Origin: [Clostridium] celerecrescens 18A | Lineage (GTDB): Bacteria > Bacillota > Clostridia > Lachnospirales > Lachnospiraceae | Assembly: GCF_002797975.1 (NCBI RefSeq) | Contig: NZ_PGET01000001.1 | Coordinates: 4,700,001 to 4,764,000, forward strand | Direction of reading: 5' to 3' | Length of the DNA stretch: 64,000 bases | In this document: piece after piece, positions 183 to 22,917 of the stretch | Layout: each line of letters opens with the position of its first letter | Numbering within the stretch: position 1 is the first letter of the stretch | Position numbers and translations under genes: made by a program | Notes under the pieces: generated by a model | What the model was told of the DNA's origin: nothing | Seen by the model: the letters and a program-made list of their open reading frames with translations, nothing else | Database searches by the model: none

Positions 183-491
183 ATGGAAAGATATGAAGCC
201 ATAGGCGCGGTAGAAACATTTGGTCTGGTATTTGTTCTCGAAGCGGCGGATGCAATGTGCAAGGCGGCTGATGTGGAACTCATCGGCTATGAAAATGTAG
301 CTTCCGGTTATATTTCTGTTTTGGTACGGGGAGATGTGGGAGCCTGCAAGACGGCTGTAGAAGCTGGAATTAAGGCAGTAAAGGATATGGGAGCGGATGT
401 TTACAGCTCCGTAGTCATTCCAAGACCTCATCCCCATCTTGAAAAAATCATCAGACGATATGCCTTAAGTGTTGCTCCTGAACAGGAATAG
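183..491 (+). CDS. BMC-H microcompartment shell protein
   Basis: 102-residue single BMC domain of PduA/EutM size, expected to form hexameric facets of the shell. It shows AIGAVETFGLVFVLEAADAM (strand 1 and helix A), the pore-lining region around ENVASGYIS, and VRGDVGACKTAVEAG (helix B). The pore segment differs from the GGG type seen in the shell proteins at 10313 and 13206 (VASGY instead of GGGLV), suggesting a different pore chemistry. The ATG at 183 follows GAGAGAGG. It sits between a partial shell gene and an aldehyde dehydrogenase homologue in the cut BMC operon. Shell membership is near certain; metabolite selectivity is unknown. Confidence 0.93.
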   Translation: MERYEAIGAVETFGLVFVLEAADAMCKAADVELIGYENVASGYISVLVRGDVGACKTAVEAGIKAVKDMGADVYSSVVIPRPHPHLEKIIRRYALSVAPEQE

Positions 492-521: not shown

Positions 522-2018
522 ATGAATTTTGTAGATAAAGACCTGCTCTCCATACAGGAGGCAAGGATTTTAATGGAAAGTGCACGGGAAGCCAGAGAGA
601 CCATGCTTACCTTCCCCCAGGAAACGCTTGATCTCATTACAGGCACCCTGGCTGCGGCAGCAAAGGAACTGGCGGAGGAACTGGCGGTCATGTCCGCGGA
701 AGAAACCGGATATGGACGTTTCCAGGACAAGTACGTGAAGAACACCTTTGTCTGCAATTTCCTGCCGGAGCGCTTAAAAGATATGAGGTGTGTCGGCATC
801 TTAGAAGAAGACTCAAGGCATAAAACCATGGCAGTTGGCGTTCCTGTGGGTGTGATTGCCGCACTGACGCCGGCAGTGAGCCCGGTTTCTACTGCGATTT
901 ACAACATTCTGATCGCTGTTAAGTCCGGCAACCCCATCGTTATCGCGCCTCATGAAAGGGCTGGGAAGGTAACGGGCAGACTGATTGACCGGCTGATGGA
1001 AGCAGGAAAATGCTGCGGACTTCCGGAAGGAGCCATCGGGTATTTAAAGACAGTGACAAGGGCAGGAACCCTGGAGCTGATCCGCCACCCGGCAGCAGCC
1101 ATGGTGGTCAACACCGGAGTACCGGAGCTGTGCCGCGAGGCAGCAGAAAGCGGAAAACCTTATATTTACGGCGGTACCGGAAACGGACCAGTCTTTGTGG
1201 AACGGACTGCCGATGTAAGACAGGCGGTAGAGGATATCATTACAAGCCGTACCTTTGATTATGGGATCGTGTCTGCAGCCGAGCAGTATATGGTGGTAGA
1301 CAGCCTCATTGCAGCAGAAGTAAAAGCCGAAATGCTAAAGAACGGCGCCTACTTTATGAATGGGGAAGAGGAGAAACAGTTAATTGATCTCCTTTGCCTG
1401 GAAAGCGGGAAGGCGGATACGGAAATCATGGGAAGACCGGCAGCAGAACTTGCGGTCAGAGCAGGATTTACGGTTTCTGATTCCACAACGGTGCTGGTTT
1501 CTGAACAGAAGTATATTTCTGACAGGAATCCGTTTGCAAAAGAGCTTCTGTGTCCTGTACTGGCTTATTACATTGAAAATGACTGGATGCACGCCTGCGA
1601 GAAATGCATGAGCCTTCTGGTTAACGAAAGCCATGGACACACCCTGGTAATCCACTCCAGGAATGAAGAAGTGATACGCCAGTTCGCCTTAAAGAAGCCG
1701 GTGGGCAGAATCCTTGTCAATACACCCGCCACCCTGGGCAGCATGGGAGCGACCACGAACTTATTTCCGGCCATGACCCTTGGTAGTATTACGACAGGCG
1801 CCGGAATTACGGCTGACAACGTGTCGCCCATGAATTTCATCTACATCCGGAGTGTGGGATATGGAGTCCGGGATGCGAAAGAATTCCTTGGAGTTACAGG
1901 AAACGTTTCGGGCGGACATGGAAAAGCTCCTGAGACAAAAGGAGGAAGCGAAGATGCAAAAGCGCTCCTGAAACAGATTTTAGAAACCTTGTCCAGGGAG
2001 CTTGATGATAAGTGTTGA
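522..2018 (+). CDS. EutE/PduP-like aldehyde dehydrogenase homologue lacking the catalytic Cys
   Basis: 498 residues from the ATG at 522, which has GGGAGA upstream; an in-frame ATG at 504 is less well placed. The fold matches CoA-acylating acetaldehyde dehydrogenases and the sequence aligns along its length with the paralogue at 10945-12492. Where that paralogue has DYGTICASEQ with Cys251, this protein has DYGIVSAAEQ with Ser251 (codon 1272-1274), at the same residue number. Without the thiol it should not form a thioester, so it is probably a non-catalytic pseudoenzyme. The C-terminus (about residues 478-495, DAKALLKQILETLSREL) is an amphipathic helix after a linker, like BMC encapsulation peptides. 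A structural, cargo-scaffold or regulatory role inside the compartment is inference. Confidence 0.88.
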   Translation: MNFVDKDLLSIQEARILMESAREARETMLTFPQETLDLITGTLAAAAKELAEELAVMSAEETGYGRFQDKYVKNTFVCNFLPERLKDMRCVGILEEDSRHKTMAVGVPVGVIAALTPAVSPVSTAIYNILIAVKSGNPIVIAPHERAGKVTGRLIDRLMEAGKCCGLPEGAIGYLKTVTRAGTLELIRHPAAAMVVNTGVPELCREAAESGKPYIYGGTGNGPVFVERTADVRQAVEDIITSRTFDYGIVSAAEQYMVVDSLIAAEVKAEMLKNGAYFMNGEEEKQLIDLLCLESGKADTEIMGRPAAELAVRAGFTVSDSTTVLVSEQKYISDRNPFAKELLCPVLAYYIENDWMHACEKCMSLLVNESHGHTLVIHSRNEEVIRQFALKKPVGRILVNTPATLGSMGATTNLFPAMTLGSITTGAGITADNVSPMNFIYIRSVGYGVRDAKEFLGVTGNVSGGHGKAPETKGGSEDAKALLKQILETLSRELDDKC

Positions 2019-2084: not shown

Positions 2085-2121
2085 ATTAGGTGGCAAATAA
2101 TTGAAAGAGAGGGAAACCAGA

Positions 2122-4665
2122 TTGGATATTCGTGAATTTTCAAATAAATTTGTGGAAGCAACGAAGAACATGACACCAGAAGAAAGAGCTTCTCTGATGA
2201 AGATGTTTGAAACTGTTTCCGATGAAATCAACAAAAAAGAGCCTGCTTCCCAGGCGGCAGCATGCCTTGAGGGAGGAACAGAGATACCGGATGGCATTAC
2301 TCCGAGGCTTCAGAACTTAAAGGAAAATTATTTAAAGCATAAACCATCGATCACAACATACCGTGCAAGGGCTATTACCAAGATCGCAAAAGAAAACCCT
2401 GGTATGCCAAAGATCATGCTTCGTGCAAAATGCTTCCGTTACTGCTGTGAAACAGCTCCCCTTGTCATTCAGGACAACGAGCTCATCGTAGGTGCTCCCT
2501 GCGGCGCTCCGCGTGCAGGTGCATTCTCCCCGGATATCGCATGGAGATGGATGGTAGATGAGATCGATACCATCGGTACACGTCCTCAGGATCCATTCTA
2601 TATTTCCGATGAAGACAAGAAAATCATGAAAGAAGAGCTGTTCCCATACTGGTCCGGCAAATCGGTTGATGAGTATTGTGAAGATCAGTACCGTGAAGCA
2701 GGCGTTTGGGAATTATCCGGAGAATCCTTTGTATCTGACTGCTCTTACCATGCCATCAACGGCGGCGGAGATTCAAACCCCGGCTATGATGTGATCCTTA
2801 TGAAGAAGGGCATGCTGGATATTCAGCAGGAAGCCAAGGATCATTTAAAAGAACTGGATTATGAGAATCCTGATGATATTGAGAAGATTTATTTCTACAA
2901 ATCCATTATTGATACCACAGAAGGCGTTATGATCTACGCAAAGAGACTTTCCGAGTATGCAGCAGAGCTTGCAGCAAAGGAAACCAATCCAAAGCGTAAG
3001 GAAGAACTGTTAAAGATTTCAGAAGTAAATGCTTACGTTCCTGCTCACAAGCCAAGAACCTTCTGGGAGGCCATCCAGGCAGTATGGACCATCGAATCCC
3101 TGCTCGTAGTGGAAGAAAACCAGACCGGTATGTCCATCGGACGTGTGGATCAGTATATGTATCCATTCTACAAAGATGACATCGAATCCGGACGTATGAA
3201 TGATTACCAGGCATTTGAGCTTGCAGGCTGTATGCTGATCAAGATGTCTGAGATGATGTGGATCACCAGCGAAGGCGGTTCCAAATTCTTTGCAGGCTAC
3301 CAGCCATTCGTAAACATGTGTGTAGGCGGTGTGACCCGCAGTGGACACGATGCCACCAATGATTTAACTTACTTACTTATGGATGCCGTTCGTCATGTTA
3401 AGATTTACCAGCCATCACTTGCATGCCGTATCCACAACAAGTCCCCGAAAAAGTACATGAAAAAGATCGTAGATGTGGTTCGTTCCGGTATGGGATTCCC
3501 AGCCTGCCACTTTGACGATGCCCACATCAAGATGATGCTTGCAAAAGGCGTATCCATTGAAGATGCACGTGATTACTGCCTGATGGGCTGTGTAGAGCCT
3601 CAGAAGTCAGGACGTCTCTATCAGTGGACATCCACTGCATATACCCAGTGGCCGATCTGTATCGAGCTTGTTTTAAACCACGGAACTCCGTTATGGTATG
3701 GCAAGCAGGTTTGCCCGGATATGGGTGACTTAAGCAACTTCAAAACTTACGAAGAGTTTGAAGCAGCCGTAAAAGAAGAAATCAAATATATTACAAAGTG
3801 GACCGATGTTGCTACCGTAATTTCCCAGCGCGTTCACAGAGACTTAGCTCCGAAGCCACTCATGTCCATCATGTACGAAGGCTGTATGGAAAAAGCAAAG
3901 GATGTATCCGCAGGCGGTGCGATGTACAACTTCGGACCTGGTGTGGTATGGTCCGGACTTGCTACCTATGCAGATTCCATGGCAGCGATCAAGAAGCTTG
4001 TATTTGAAGAGAAAAAATATACATTAGAGCAGATAAACGAAGCGTTAAAGGCTGACTTTGTGGGATATGACCAGATCCGCACCGATTGCCTTAATGCTCC
4101 AAAATACGGAAATGATGATGATTATGCAGATTTAATTGCAGCTGACCTGGTTGACTTTACAGAGCATGAACACAGGAAATATAAGACCTTATACTCTGTA
4201 TTAAGCCATGGTACCTTATCCATTTCCAATAACACTCCATTCGGACAGATGACAGGCGCTTCTGCCAACGGCCGTAATGCATGGCTGCCTCTTTCCGACG
4301 GAATCAGCCCAACCCAGGGTGCAGACTTCAAGGGCCCGACTGCAATCATCAAGTCCGTATCCAAGATGTCCAATGACAGCATGAACATCGGTATGGTGCA
4401 TAACTTTAAGATCATGGCTGGTCTTTTGGATACCCAGGAAGGGGAAGAAAGCCTTATCACCCTTCTTCGTACGGCCTGTATGTTAGGAAACGGCGAGATG
4501 CAGTTCAACTACCTGGATAACAATACCTTGGTTGAGGCTCAGAAGCATCCGGAGCTGTACCGCGACTTAATCGTCCGCGTAGCCGGCTATAGCGCATTCT
4601 TCGTAGAGTTATGCAAGGATGTACAGGATGAGATCATAAGCAGAACTATGCTGACACATTTCTAA
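2122..4665 (+). CDS. cutC: Choline trimethylamine-lyase (glycyl radical enzyme)
   Basis: Cleaves choline to trimethylamine and acetaldehyde with a glycyl radical. The thiyl motif is GCVEP with Cys490; the CutC-specific choline pocket follows as [11 protein letters not shown] (Thr503, Tyr507), and SFVSDCSY supplies the Asp at about 217. The C-terminal glycyl-radical loop is RVAGYSAFF with Gly822. All these numbers are one above those known for Desulfovibrio CutC (Cys489, Thr502, Tyr506, Gly821), which supports the TTG start at 2122, preceded by GAGAGGG; a TTG at 2101 is in frame but poorly placed. Length 847 matches CutC without the long type II N-terminal extension. It is followed directly by its activase. 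Propanediol or glycerol dehydratase is disfavoured by the choline-pocket residues. Confidence 0.95.
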
Positions 4666-4687
4666 AAGAAAGTTGAGATCAATCACA

Positions 4688-5641
4688 ATGGACCATGGAA
4701 CGACAGGAGAGATTGAACGTAAGGCGTTTATCTTTAACGTGCAGAAGTACAACATGTATGACGGGCCGGGAATCAGAACCCTGGTATTTTTTAAAGGCTG
4801 TCCGCTCCGGTGTAAATGGTGCTCCAATCCAGAAGGAATGGTGCGGAAATTCCAGGTGATGTATAAGCAGAATTCCTGTGTAAACTGCGGGGCGTGCGCT
4901 GATGTATGCCCCGTGGGAATCCATGTGATATCCAAAGAGACGGGAAAACATGAAATCCGGCGGGAAAAGGATTGCATCGGATGCATGAAATGCAAGAATG
5001 TCTGCCCCAATGCAGCGCTGACCATTGCCGGAGAAGTTAAGACCATTTCAGAACTGCTTAAAATCGTGGAAGAGGATTCTGCCTTTTATGATATTTCAGG
5101 CGGCGGCGTGACTCTTGGGGGCGGCGAAGTGACTGCCCAGCCGGAAGCAGCCTTAAACCTGTTAATGGCCTGCAAGCAGGAAGGGATCAATACGGCAATT
5201 GAGACCTGTGGTTATACAAATACGGAAACGATTTTAAAAATTGCAGAGTATGTGGACCTGTTTCTGTTTGATATCAAACATATGGATCCTGTCCGCCACA
5301 ATGAACTGGTGGGTGTGAACAACGAACAGATTCTTACCAATTTAAAGGAACTGCTTCACCACCGTTTTAATGTGAAAGTCCGCATGCCTATGTTAAAGGG
5401 GATCAATGACAGCCGGGAAGAGATCGATGAGGTCATTAAATTCTTAATGCCCTTCCGTGACTACAAAAATTTTAAGGGAATTGATTTACTTCCGTACCAT
5501 AAGCTGGGCGTTAACAAATATAATCAGCTTGATATGAAATATCCCATTGAAGGGGATCCAAGCTTAAGCCCGGAGGATTTAGACCGGATTGAAGGCTGGA
5601 TGAAGGAATATCAATTTCCGGTTACTGTGGTGAAGCACTAA
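4688..5641 (+). CDS. cutD: CutC glycyl-radical activating enzyme (radical SAM)
   Basis: Installs the glycyl radical on CutC using S-adenosylmethionine and a [4Fe-4S] cluster. The radical SAM motif CPLRCKWC (CX3CX2C) lies near residue 40, preceded by YDGPGIRT. A ferredoxin-like insert follows with CVNCGACADVCP and CIGCMKCKNVCP, as in activases of PFL-like enzymes. The GGGEVTAQPE segment is the usual SAM-binding strand. The start is uncertain: a TTG at 4673 and an ATG at 4688 are both in frame, and no strong ribosome site decides between them; I use the ATG. It lies 22 bases after cutC and is surely co-translated in the same operon. Confidence 0.94.
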   Translation: MDHGTTGEIERKAFIFNVQKYNMYDGPGIRTLVFFKGCPLRCKWCSNPEGMVRKFQVMYKQNSCVNCGACADVCPVGIHVISKETGKHEIRREKDCIGCMKCKNVCPNAALTIAGEVKTISELLKIVEEDSAFYDISGGGVTLGGGEVTAQPEAALNLLMACKQEGINTAIETCGYTNTETILKIAEYVDLFLFDIKHMDPVRHNELVGVNNEQILTNLKELLHHRFNVKVRMPMLKGINDSREEIDEVIKFLMPFRDYKNFKGIDLLPYHKLGVNKYNQLDMKYPIEGDPSLSPEDLDRIEGWMKEYQFPVTVVKH

Positions 5642-5657: not shown

Positions 5658-5996
5658 ATGATTGAGATGCAGCGTGTCATAGAGGAATCCGTTCCTGGTA
5701 AACAGGTGACCATCGCCCATGTGATCGCATCTCCCATTCCGGAGGTGTATGAATGCCTTGGCATCGATGAAATGGGAGCCATCGGAATTCTCACCCTGTC
5801 CCCTTTTGAAACCTCTATCATTGCGGCGGATATTGCAGCAAAGGCAGCAGATGTGCAGGTGGGCTTCTTAGACCGCTTCACAGGCTCTGTGATCATTGCC
5901 GGCGATGTGGACAGTGTGGAAACCGCTTTGACTGCGGTATGCGATACCTTAAACCGCGGCCTGGGCTATATGGTGCCTGCGGTAACCAAAACATGA
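5658..5996 (+). CDS. PduU/EutS-like circularly permuted BMC shell protein
   Basis: 112 residues. The N-terminal segment (residues 1-35, ending HVIASPIPEVYECLGI) precedes the BMC core GAIGILTLSPFETSIIAADIAAKAADVQV-type helix, the order found in circularly permuted shell proteins PduU and EutS, which form hexamers with a beta-barrel plug. The core continues with GFLDRFTGSVIIAGDV. The ATG follows AAGGGGAAAAGGCC. Its stop overlaps the start of the next gene (ATGA), so the two are translationally coupled, as eutS-eutP and pduU-pduV often are. Not catalytic; structural role in the shell. Confidence 0.92.
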   Translation: MIEMQRVIEESVPGKQVTIAHVIASPIPEVYECLGIDEMGAIGILTLSPFETSIIAADIAAKAADVQVGFLDRFTGSVIIAGDVDSVETALTAVCDTLNRGLGYMVPAVTKT

Positions 5997-6498: not shown

Positions 6499-7635
6499 AT
6501 GGAGCAATTTGTAATGAATACAAAGGTATATATGGGATCTTCCTGTCTGGATAAGATCAAGGATCTTCCTGTGACGAAGGCTTATATTATCTGTGACCCC
6601 TTTATGGCCCAGTCTGGAAAGGTAGACTGGATTACAGAGCTTTTGCAGGAAAAGGGGAGCAGCTATGAAGTGTTTTCTGGAGTAGTGCCCGATCCGACCA
6701 TTGAAGTCGTTTCAAAAGCTATAGGTGGAATGAAATGCTTTGGTCCGGATGCAGTGATCGCCCTTGGCGGCGGCTCTGCTATTGATACGGCAAAGGCAGC
6801 AAGCCACATCTTCAGTCAGATGGGAAATGAGAGACTGTTCTTAATTGCGGTTCCAACCACCAGCGGTACCGGCAGTGAAGTAACTAATTTTTCTGTTATA
6901 TCCGACCCACAGGCCCAGGCGAAATATCCGCTGCGTTCCGATAGCATGGTGCCGGATGCAGCATTTCTTGATCCCCGTTTTACGGTGTCGGTTCCGCCTC
7001 ACATTACAGCGGATACTGGAATGGATGTGTTAACCCATGCCCTGGAAGCTTATGTTTCAACCAATGCAGGTGATTTTACCGATGCCTGTGCGGAAAAAGC
7101 GGTGAGACTGGTGTGGAACTACCTGACACGTACCGTAGAAGAAGGAAGCGACATGGAAGCCAGAACTCATATGCACAATGCTTCCTGTCTGGCTGGAGTT
7201 GCATTTAACGGAGCTTCCTTAGGGCTTTGCCACAGCATGGCTCATGCTCTGGGAGCGCGCTTTCACATTCCACACGGAAGAAGCAATGCGATCCTGCTTC
7301 CTCATGTCATCAGCTACAACGCTGGTCTGGAAGACGCCAGTGAGCAGAAAGCCTGCGGCAGGTATGTGGCAATTGCCAATATGCTTGGAATCGCGGCCGG
7401 AACAGATAAGGCCACGGTACACGGCTTGGTGCGTCACATTAAAAATCTGATGAACAAGATCAAAATACCGCAGCAGATTACAGACTTAAAGATTGATAAA
7501 GACGAATTTGAGCAGGCCGTACGGGAAATGGCGGAAAAAGCACTGGCTGACAACTGCACATTGACTAACCCAAGGGTGCCTACGGTAGAAGAGATTGAAA
7601 CCATCTATCGGAAACTGTGTAAGGGGGGCTATTAA
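6499..7635 (+). CDS. Iron-containing alcohol dehydrogenase of the BMC (CutO/EutG-like)
   Basis: 378-residue group III (Fe-dependent) alcohol dehydrogenase. The Rossmann-like part has ALGGGSAIDTAKAA and PTTSGTGSEVT; metal ligands are visible in TGMDVLTHALEAYVS and in SLGLCHSMAHALG...HIPHG. Predicted to reduce acetaldehyde released by CutC to ethanol and so recycle NADH to NAD+ for the acylating aldehyde dehydrogenase inside the compartment. The ATG follows AAAGGAGGG. The stop overlaps the next start (TAATG). Substrate is inferred from the operon; closely related enzymes act on 1,3-propanediol or butanol. Confidence 0.92.
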   Translation: MEQFVMNTKVYMGSSCLDKIKDLPVTKAYIICDPFMAQSGKVDWITELLQEKGSSYEVFSGVVPDPTIEVVSKAIGGMKCFGPDAVIALGGGSAIDTAKAASHIFSQMGNERLFLIAVPTTSGTGSEVTNFSVISDPQAQAKYPLRSDSMVPDAAFLDPRFTVSVPPHITADTGMDVLTHALEAYVSTNAGDFTDACAEKAVRLVWNYLTRTVEEGSDMEARTHMHNASCLAGVAFNGASLGLCHSMAHALGARFHIPHGRSNAILLPHVISYNAGLEDASEQKACGRYVAIANMLGIAAGTDKATVHGLVRHIKNLMNKIKIPQQITDLKIDKDEFEQAVREMAEKALADNCTLTNPRVPTVEEIETIYRKLCKGGY

Positions 7636-10944: not shown

Positions 10945-12492
10945 ATGGAGAACTTTGATTTTGATTTACGTTCCATCCAGGAAGCAAGGGATTTAGCCAG
11001 ATGCGGTGAAGCAGCCGCAAAAAAAATTGCCGGATTTACGGCAGAACAGATTGACACCATTCTTAAGAGTATGGCAAAAGCAGGAGAGGAACACGCTCTT
11101 TGCCTGGCAGAGATGGCTGTAGAGGAGACAGGCTTTGGAAAGGTCATGGACAAGGCATATAAGAACCATGCTGCTTCCACTCTTTTATATGAAGAAATAA
11201 AAGATATGAAGACAAGAGGAATCCTTGCAGAGGATACCGTAAATAAGACCATTGATGTGGCAGAACCGGTAGGCCTTGTAATGGGTATCGTTCCATCTAC
11301 CAATCCGACCTCAACCGTATTCTTTAAATCCATGATTGCCATTAAATCAGGAAACGCAATTGTATTTTCTCCCCATCCTTCTGCTGCAAAATGCACGTTA
11401 AAGGCTGCAGAGGTTATGAGGGACGCTGCAATTGCAGCAGGAGCACCGGAGGGGATCATCGGCTGTGTATCCATGCCATCCATGGGATCTACCAATGAAC
11501 TGATGAAGTGTAAGGAAGTTTCCGTAATCATTGCAACCGGCGGCCCGGGTATGGTAAAAGCTGCATACAGCGCAGGTAAGCCAGCCATCGGCGTAGGTGC
11601 AGGCAACTCACCGGCTTACATTGAAAAGACGGCAGATGTAAAGCAGGCGGTAAAGACAATCCTTGCCAGCAAGACGTTTGACTATGGTACCATCTGTGCT
11701 TCCGAGCAGTCCATTATCTGTGAGGAAAGCAATCATGCAGAAGTCGTAGCAGAGTTAAAAAGCCAGGGCGGTTACTTTATGACAAAGGAAGAAACCGACA
11801 AAGTCTGTGCCCTGTTATTTAAAAACGGCCATAACATGAATGCCAAATTTGTCGGACGTTCTCCTCAGGTGATTGCTCAGGCAGCCGGAATCCAGATCCC
11901 GGAGGAAGCAAAGGTCCTCATCGGAAAACAGGAAGGTGTCGGAGAGGGATATCCATTATCCTACGAAAAGCTGACAACCGTACTTGGTTTCTACACAGTA
12001 AAGAACTGGGAAGAGGCCTGCGGCTTAAGCATCCGACTTTTACAGAACGGAATCGGACATACCATGAGCATTCATACCCAGGACAGGGATATGGTTCTTA
12101 AGTTTGCTGCAAAGCCTGCTTCCAGAATCCTTGTAAATACAGGCGGAAGCCAGGGAGGAACAGGAATCAGTACAGGCCTTCCGATTTCCTTTACATTGGG
12201 ATGCGGAACCTGCGGAGGAAGCTCTGTTTCTGAAAATGTGAGCCCGAAACATCTCCTTAATGTGAAAAAGGTCGCATTTGGTATTAAAGATTGCTCTACA
12301 ATCGCGGCAGATGATCCAACCTTTACCTGGAAGAACAAAACCCAGGAGGCTACCTTTAGCCCTGCTGACTTCGTAGCTTCTTTTGATAAAAAAGAAGGTG
12401 AGGCCTCTTCTGCCTGCCAGGGAGGAAACGATGACAATGAGAAGCTGGCAGCTCTTGTAAAAGAGATCGTACTGGCCATGAAAGGCCAGTAA
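10945..12492 (+). CDS. CoA-acylating acetaldehyde dehydrogenase of the cut BMC
   Basis: 515 residues of the EutE/PduP family; converts acetaldehyde, NAD+ and CoA to acetyl-CoA. The nucleophile is Cys251 in FDYGTICASEQ; the preceding GVGAGNSPAYIEKTADV is the usual nucleotide-site loop. The C-terminal 15 residues (about 497-513, EKLAALVKEIVLAMK) after a poor linker form an amphipathic helix typical of encapsulation peptides. It is the functional counterpart of the Cys-less homologue at 522-2018. The ATG follows GGGAGAACGGGAAC. Called CutF in some cut clusters; naming is not uniform, so no symbol is given. Confidence 0.94.
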   Translation: MENFDFDLRSIQEARDLARCGEAAAKKIAGFTAEQIDTILKSMAKAGEEHALCLAEMAVEETGFGKVMDKAYKNHAASTLLYEEIKDMKTRGILAEDTVNKTIDVAEPVGLVMGIVPSTNPTSTVFFKSMIAIKSGNAIVFSPHPSAAKCTLKAAEVMRDAAIAAGAPEGIIGCVSMPSMGSTNELMKCKEVSVIIATGGPGMVKAAYSAGKPAIGVGAGNSPAYIEKTADVKQAVKTILASKTFDYGTICASEQSIICEESNHAEVVAELKSQGGYFMTKEETDKVCALLFKNGHNMNAKFVGRSPQVIAQAAGIQIPEEAKVLIGKQEGVGEGYPLSYEKLTTVLGFYTVKNWEEACGLSIRLLQNGIGHTMSIHTQDRDMVLKFAAKPASRILVNTGGSQGGTGISTGLPISFTLGCGTCGGSSVSENVSPKHLLNVKKVAFGIKDCSTIAADDPTFTWKNKTQEATFSPADFVASFDKKEGEASSACQGGNDDNEKLAALVKEIVLAMKGQ

Positions 12493-22175: not shown

Positions 22176-22212
22176 GTGTTGTATAAGCAGAAAGCAGGGA
22201 GTGATAACAGCC

Positions 22213-22917
22213 GTGCCGTTTAACCCGGATTATACTTATGGAAACAGATTTCAGGAACTGGAGCCATATATGCTTTATGGCGACAGGAGTGCCGCAGAGC
22301 GTTCCTTTGAAAGAAAAGATTCCATTGTGCAGGATTTGGAATATTTACAAGGAATGTACCCAGGACATATGAAACGTTTGCAGGAATACGTAGTCTCAGC
22401 GTGTGATCATCTGGATTATAAAAACAGTCCCATGTATGACGAATATCCGGATCGTTTGATGATCAACCAGGTCTGCGATTCCATCTGTGACCAAATACGC
22501 AGGGATGGTATCCTGATTGATGAACTGGCAGCAGAGCCAGGAGATACAGAACAGTCAGCTGCAGAGCAGGAAAGAGCAGAACAAATGGAGTGGGGAGCAG
22601 ACGATATGGATGAATCGGATCTGTTGTCCCAGGACCGTGATTCGTCATGGGATCGCCCGCCGTGGGGACCAAGGGGGCCGAGGGGCCCAAGAGGACCAAG
22701 AGGACCAAGAGGACCGTGGGGGCCAAGAGGGCCATGGGGACCCTGCGGACCATGGGGGCCATGTGGACCGAGAGGACCGTGGGGACCATGGGGGCCATGG
22801 GGACCGAGAGGACCTTGGGCCCAGAGTCTCGATGATGGTTGGCTGGATGGCGTCGTTAACGTACTTTTGCTTAATGAGATGCACCGCAGGAGATGCCGCA
22901 GCGGACTTTGCACATAG
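22213..22917 (+). CDS. Collagen-like protein with Trp/Cys-containing GPX triplets
   Basis: 234 residues from a GTG at 22213 with AGGGAGTGAT upstream. Residues 1-150 are a charged, probably helical domain ([39 protein letters not shown]) of a type I recall as an uncharacterised Firmicutes family. Residues 152-202 are 17 uninterrupted Gly-Pro-X triplets with X = Arg, Trp or Cys only. A 32-residue tail with RRRCRSGLC follows. No signal peptide or LPXTG is present. Bacterial GPX proteins of spore formers (BclA-like) sit in the exosporium; that role, and disulfide locking, are inference. No sequence-based enzymatic function. Confidence 0.75.
22666..22818 (+). repeat. Tandem nine-base GGACCN-type collagen repeat
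   Basis: Seventeen Gly-Pro-X codon triplets built from GGx CCx AGA/AGG/TGG/TGC units. The near-identical units on DNA level invite replication slippage and length variation between strains. Confidence 0.9.

Follow-up and report, generated by a model that had tools for sequence, protein, structure and literature searches.

Choline microcompartments produce trimethylamine, from which a metabolite associated with heart disease is derived. In the GRM1 choline loci that contain two aldehyde dehydrogenases (ALDHs), the catalytic Cys of one of the two was reported to be replaced with Ser or Pro in every case, and a scaffold or regulator role was suggested for the Cys-less enzyme (Axen et al., 2014; PMC4207490). 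The same protein was later referred to as a "putatively inactive second copy" (Sutter et al., 2021; PMC8217296), and as far as the literature cited here goes its inactivity is inferred from sequence. The basic observation of the Cys loss has thus been in print since 2014 and, given these two reports, the core finding on this protein, here called CutB, was already known. In the open-licence full-text literature we found no experiment on CutB and no statement of a link to GRM2 loci, and the accessible parts of the text of Axen et al. (2014) and Sutter et al. (2021) contain no grouping of CutB with the GRM2 ALDH.

In the GRM2 particles of Klebsiella, the ALDH (CutF) is encapsulated only with CutC and enlarges CutC complexes; it was proposed to be a cross-linker of full-length CutC, and the CutF-CutC link requires the N-terminal domain of CutC (PMC6971018). 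GRM2 CutC proteins are described as having an N-terminal extension of approximately 350 aa. A single ALDH of this type, which has the Cys, is present in the GRM2 loci of Proteus and Escherichia coli. In E. coli three BMC-H genes are followed by the ALDH gene and then by the genes for a BMC-P protein, an alcohol dehydrogenase, CutC (1128 aa) and CutD, the ALDH gene thereby lying between the BMC-H genes and cutC.

The window analysed here is the whole 64,000-nucleotide stretch of [Clostridium] celerecrescens 18A (contig NZ_PGET01000001.1, positions 4,700,001 to 4,764,000). Its choline locus contains the following features:

183..491, + strand: BMC-H shell protein, directly 5' of cutB (Pfam PF00936)
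522..2018, + strand: ALDH at the cutB position, 498 aa, predicted pseudoenzyme with Ser251 for the catalytic Cys; open ORF directly upstream of cutC
1272..1274, + strand: codon of Ser251, the catalytic Cys position of the paralogue
1947..2015, + strand: C-terminal amphipathic helix of CutB, residues 476-498, putative encapsulation peptide
2101..4665, + strand: cutC, choline trimethylamine-lyase, GRM1 form, 854 aa (TIGR04394, 1689 bits, cut-off 1050)
4673..5641, + strand: cutD, radical-SAM activating enzyme (Pfam PF04055)
5658..5996, + strand: BMC-domain shell protein (Pfam PF00936)
6499..7635, + strand: cutO, iron-containing alcohol dehydrogenase (Pfam PF00465)
10945..12492, + strand: cutF, active-type acylating acetaldehyde dehydrogenase with Cys251 (TIGR02518, 747.8 bits, cut-off 620.1)

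The CutC of the window (854 aa) lacks the N-terminal extension of approximately 350 aa and BMC shell genes adjoin its gene, which places the locus in GRM1 (type I cut). The two ALDH genes (522-2018 and 10945-12492) lie on the same strand and flank cutC, as in the two-ALDH GRM1 class of Axen et al. (2014), and Ser251 is one of the two replacements of the catalytic Cys described for that class. The locus is an ordinary instance of the GRM1 second-AldDH type, to which the locus type, the replaced Cys and the scaffold or regulator idea are common (Axen et al., 2014; Sutter et al., 2021). Between cutD and cutO, accessory genes are present in addition to shell genes. Elsewhere in the window, the ORF at 22201-22917 is collagen-like and contains consecutive Gly-Pro-Xaa triplets. 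The same genome also has a separate ethanolamine-type microcompartment locus (2463000-2482000), the Cys-type EutE-like ALDH of which is 41% identical to CutB.

As the start of cutB, ATG 522 is favoured over the in-frame ATG 504 because GGGAG is found at 509-513, 8 bases before the former. A sequence-only reading of this DNA had pointed out Ser251 in the 522 ORF against Cys251 in the paralogue at 10945, as well as the full length, intact frame and amphipathic C-terminal helix of the former, and these observations held. The CutB motif DYGIVSAAEQ (Ser251) aligns with the CutF motif DYGTICASEQ (Cys251), the ORF is open over its 498 codons and the helix is present (SEDAKALLKQILETLSREL); a role of this helix in encapsulation is inferred from Sutter et al. 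(2021; PMC8217296). CutB and CutF, identical in 173 of 502 aligned columns, have the fold family, the microcompartment and a C-terminal helix in common, whereas CutF has the active-type Cys and belongs to a separate clade. Of the "EutE/PduP-like" label given to the two proteins in that reading the EutE part fits better, the best NCBIfam model for the window CutB being TIGR02518, although its score of 483 bits is below the cut-off of 620.1. CutB belongs to the ALDH superfamily (PF00171, 77.2 bits, Pfam gathering score 23) and does not have the catalytic Cys of the acetylating acetaldehyde dehydrogenases, which is present in 103/103 proteins of the comparison set.

To survey residue 251, loci were found via CutC and the sample is therefore independent of the ALDH. 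It comprises 101 GRM1-type cutC loci including that of the window. Eighty of them were the best-ranking among 421 confirmed CutC matches, with CutC proteins 82-99% identical to that of the window and, as far as the titles tell, from Bacillota, GRM1 loci of Desulfobacterota and Actinomycetota lying outside this set; 20 further loci were added besides the window, nine of them with CutC at 66-67% identity. Some of the 101 loci represent one organism from two collections (e.g., L098/L193, L132/L188 and L160/L190). An upstream ALDH on the same strand was found in 97 of the 101 sampled loci (including the best 80 of 421), and position 251 is Ser in 67, Pro in 19, Ala in 10 and Val in one, a fragment (L167); Cys occurs in 0/97. 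Compared with the Ser or Pro reported by Axen et al. (2014), the sample adds the Ala and Val variants and, with respect also to Sutter et al. (2021), four loci that have no CutB and the grouping with GRM2 described below. The distinct upstream sequences number 93 (63 Ser, 19 Pro, 10 Ala and one Val). Downstream ALDHs have Cys in 86/86 cases; in several of the 15 loci that have no downstream ALDH the retrieved stretch is short or ends before that gene. Neither chance nor sequencing error would come near to explaining such a division between upstream and downstream copies.

Outside the 101 loci, Ser is found in two more (L224 and L225) and Pro in Enterococcus raffinosus (L215). The CutB of C. 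ragsdalei (L123) has Pro. In the genus of the window, all 25 genomes searched have a CutB orthologue with Ser (73-100% identity; one is partial and the other 24 are near full length), and four more orthologues elsewhere in the class have Ser at 56-60% identity in local alignments, while the weaker ALDH matches in this comparison (45% identity or less) have Cys in every one. The sequence-only reading had proposed an alignment of orthologues, in which Cys in close relatives would have spoken for a private mutation or a sequence error. With Cys in none of the 97 upstream and none of the 25 genus copies this explanation of Ser251 is rejected, and the suggestion of a conserved pseudoenzyme beside CutC gains support.

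For the trees, 91 of the 93 distinct CutBs were used (>380 aa). They form one clade (support 1.0), for which parsimony reconstructs Ser as the ancestral state at 251, followed by 11 later changes among Ser, Pro and Ala and none to Cys. Beyond the literature cited here, we find that in the trees CutB groups with the active ALDH of GRM2 and not with GRM1's own CutF, on a long CutB branch, with just two distinct GRM2 ALDHs in the trees and with no such grouping in plain identity (the GRM2 ALDH is 47% identical to CutB, 48% to CutF and up to 60.6% to some Eut-type enzymes). In one maximum-likelihood tree the single GRM2 sequence adjoins the CutB clade with UFBoot 100, and in a second one, with three GRM2 sequences of which two are near-identical and with one 7-residue artefact included, the grouping has UFBoot 99. 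The AU test (38 taxa) rejected the placement of GRM2 with CutF (p 4.7e-8), of CutF with CutB (p 0.0003) and of GRM2 with the Eut-type enzymes but without CutB (p 0.0014), the last being a severe constraint that also forces CutB from the Eut-type part; GRM2 is the sister of CutB in both unrejected trees. Two residues agree with this: Gly217 is found in 29/33 CutBs and 3/3 GRM2 ALDHs and Gly428 in 33/33 and 3/3, respectively, both being absent from Eut-type enzymes (0/25) and CutF (0/29). Unlike CutB, the GRM2 ALDH has the Cys and passes TIGR02518 (713 bits), and the CutC of its locus bears the N-terminal extension. The Proteus ALDH of the tree is 83.4% identical to the ALDH of Klebsiella. A further glycyl-radical microcompartment locus was noticed in another genome of the genus (L223:4371-15030, genome G012); its lyase passes the subfamily model TIGR01774 only (842 bits) and no equivalog, and the Cys-type ALDH of this locus is placed beside CutB plus GRM2 in the tree. 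One further protein is intermediate in identity, with true CutC proteins at 66% or more and other lyases at 41% or less.

We propose, with about even confidence, that CutB is a pseudoenzyme which lost the catalytic Cys once and kept a job in core assembly, catalysis now coming from CutF of a separate lineage. The loss would have taken place in the ancestor of the sampled GRM1 CutB copies, and from then on CutB would have evolved without catalysis as a component of the core of the choline microcompartment. Its gene lineage would be that to which the only ALDH of the GRM2 choline loci, an active one, belongs, while the oxidation step in GRM1 would be carried out by CutF. An oligomer of CutB may help to bring CutC, and perhaps other cargo, together in the core or to cross-link it there, and it may enter the shell with the aid of its own C-terminal helix or, in helix-less lineages, by piggy-backing. 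If CutB derives from the GRM2 ALDH lineage, an assembly contact kept after catalysis was lost is the simplest explanation. A link to CutC is suggested indirectly, by the position of cutB directly upstream of cutC and by its placement in the trees with the GRM2 ALDH, which in Klebsiella is the proposed cross-linker of CutC; the contact cannot equal that of GRM2, as the GRM1 CutC is without the N-terminal domain concerned. Rate covariation, a weak test, was examined in 42 taxa (61 rows less 12 near-identical ones and seven with >40% gaps in some gene). It gave no link between CutB and CutC (partial -0.18, interval -0.40 to 0.09), and the only intervals with CutB above zero were those of PduL (0.36) and EutJ (0.31). 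This counts, weakly, against the CutC-assembly reading. Also against it are the four of the 101 sampled loci that have no CutB and the split copy of L105. A more far-reaching version is offered tentatively, as a possibility about which we have more doubt than belief: the lineage of GRM2's working ALDH lost its Cys in GRM1 and its pocket decayed later, the reason being that its assembly contact with CutC could no longer be spared whereas an unrelated second ALDH was able to take over the chemistry, and the dead ALDH would organise the core of GRM1, a task for which GRM2 relies on a dead CutC-like N-terminal domain.

Among the alternatives, the one that survives best, although we consider it unlikely, is that CutB and CutF form mixed oligomers in which the dead subunit tunes or targets CutF as a regulatory or encapsulation subunit. 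The two proteins are of the same fold family. Conservation of at least 95% among 102 Cys-type ALDHs is found in 137 columns, 48 of which are kept by at least 95% of CutBs as well. Moreover, the C-terminal helix is absent from 9/91 CutBs and the CutF of those nine loci keeps one; CutB can thus manage without a signal of its own and may piggy-back. However, CutB groups away from CutF in the AU test, and the rate covariation of the two gave no link (0.11, interval -0.07 to 0.29, including zero; the same weak test with 42 taxa). In addition, two genomes, G213 (99% complete) and G629 (96% complete), hold CutB and no CutF-clade ALDH, having only Eut-type or AdhE ones. CutF is therefore not an obligatory partner of CutB, and an obligatory CutB-CutF heteromer is rejected.

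The active site of CutB has decayed beyond position 251, 35 of the 137 conserved columns being kept by half of the CutBs or fewer. Asn120, which we take to be the oxyanion-hole Asn, is kept in 21/91 CutBs and Thr122 in one; Gly200 is replaced in most (Val in 67/91) and Gly216-Val217 is mostly Tyr-Gly, each of these three residues being invariant in the Cys set (103/103). His373 is kept in 79/91 and Glu341 in 68/91. In eight of the nine deepest-branch CutBs, and in 12/91 overall, Asn120, Glu341 and His373 are all kept and the Cys alone is lost; the loss of the Cys thus probably preceded the other decay of the active site. The residues equivalent to His373 and Glu341 in the Rhodopseudomonas enzyme are His449 and Glu419, of which the latter is reported to bind nicotinamide ribose (PMC5311937). 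These patterns bear on the view that CutB binds a ligand, be it NAD(H), CoA or acetaldehyde, and as its sensor or buffer would regulate CutC or the core. Lys134 (90/91), Asn137 (91/91), Pro143 (90/91) and Gly199 (87/91) are indeed retained, but the changes at Gly200, Gly216 and Val217 and the loss in 23/91 CutBs of the equivalent of a ribose-binding Glu make such a role improbable.

It is still less probable, in our opinion, that CutB is a weakly constrained relic and has no function that is needed. CutB is absent from 4/101 sampled loci (L153, L168, L176 and L177), and a second copy sought in those four genomes was not found, the best ALDH matches being at most 40% identical and having Cys; the copy of L105 is disrupted, being split into two ORFs. 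CutB also evolves approximately 1.8 times faster than CutF (mean distance from the most recent common ancestor to the tips 1.04 vs 0.57). In three inspected CutB-less loci a BMC-H gene directly precedes cutC, and in one of the four (L153:9379-9990) two BMC-H domains that are elsewhere separate genes are fused as one 203-aa ORF. Nevertheless, CutB is kept in 96% of the sampled loci and in all 25 genus genomes, and its dN/dS values (NG86) in three groups, 0.067, 0.147 and 0.084, indicate that it is under purifying selection, with dS near saturation in two of the three groups and some saturated pairs left out. The corresponding values are 0.043, 0.187 and 0.062 for CutF and 0.033, 0.107 and 0.040 for CutC. 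In C. ljungdahlii the ALDH gene adjoining the choline lyase gene, matched to cutB by position, is strongly induced by choline (log2 7.2 +/- 0.9, compared with 7.9 for the lyase and 5.6 for the other ALDH; PMC12016505), and the gene at the cutB position is in use among relatives.

Least probable of all is that CutB still works as an enzyme via Ser251 or another nucleophile such as Cys344, since, although Ser is the most frequent residue at 251 and the ancestral one by reconstruction, and Cys344 is kept in 84/91 CutBs, 29/91 have Pro or Ala at 251 (plus one Val in the fragment), which cannot stand in for a thiol and imply that selection does not maintain a nucleophile there, Cys344 is also present in the active GRM2 ALDHs (3/3) and is hence no replacement nucleophile, and Asn120 is lost in 70/91.

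The reading of CutB as a pseudoenzyme retained for core assembly is thus the one we prefer, and CutB is probably a structural part rather than an enzyme. Kept in 97 of the 101 sampled loci, naturally lost in a few and related to an active ALDH in GRM2, CutB would offer a clean comparison for the study of non-catalytic roles of enzymes in compartments.
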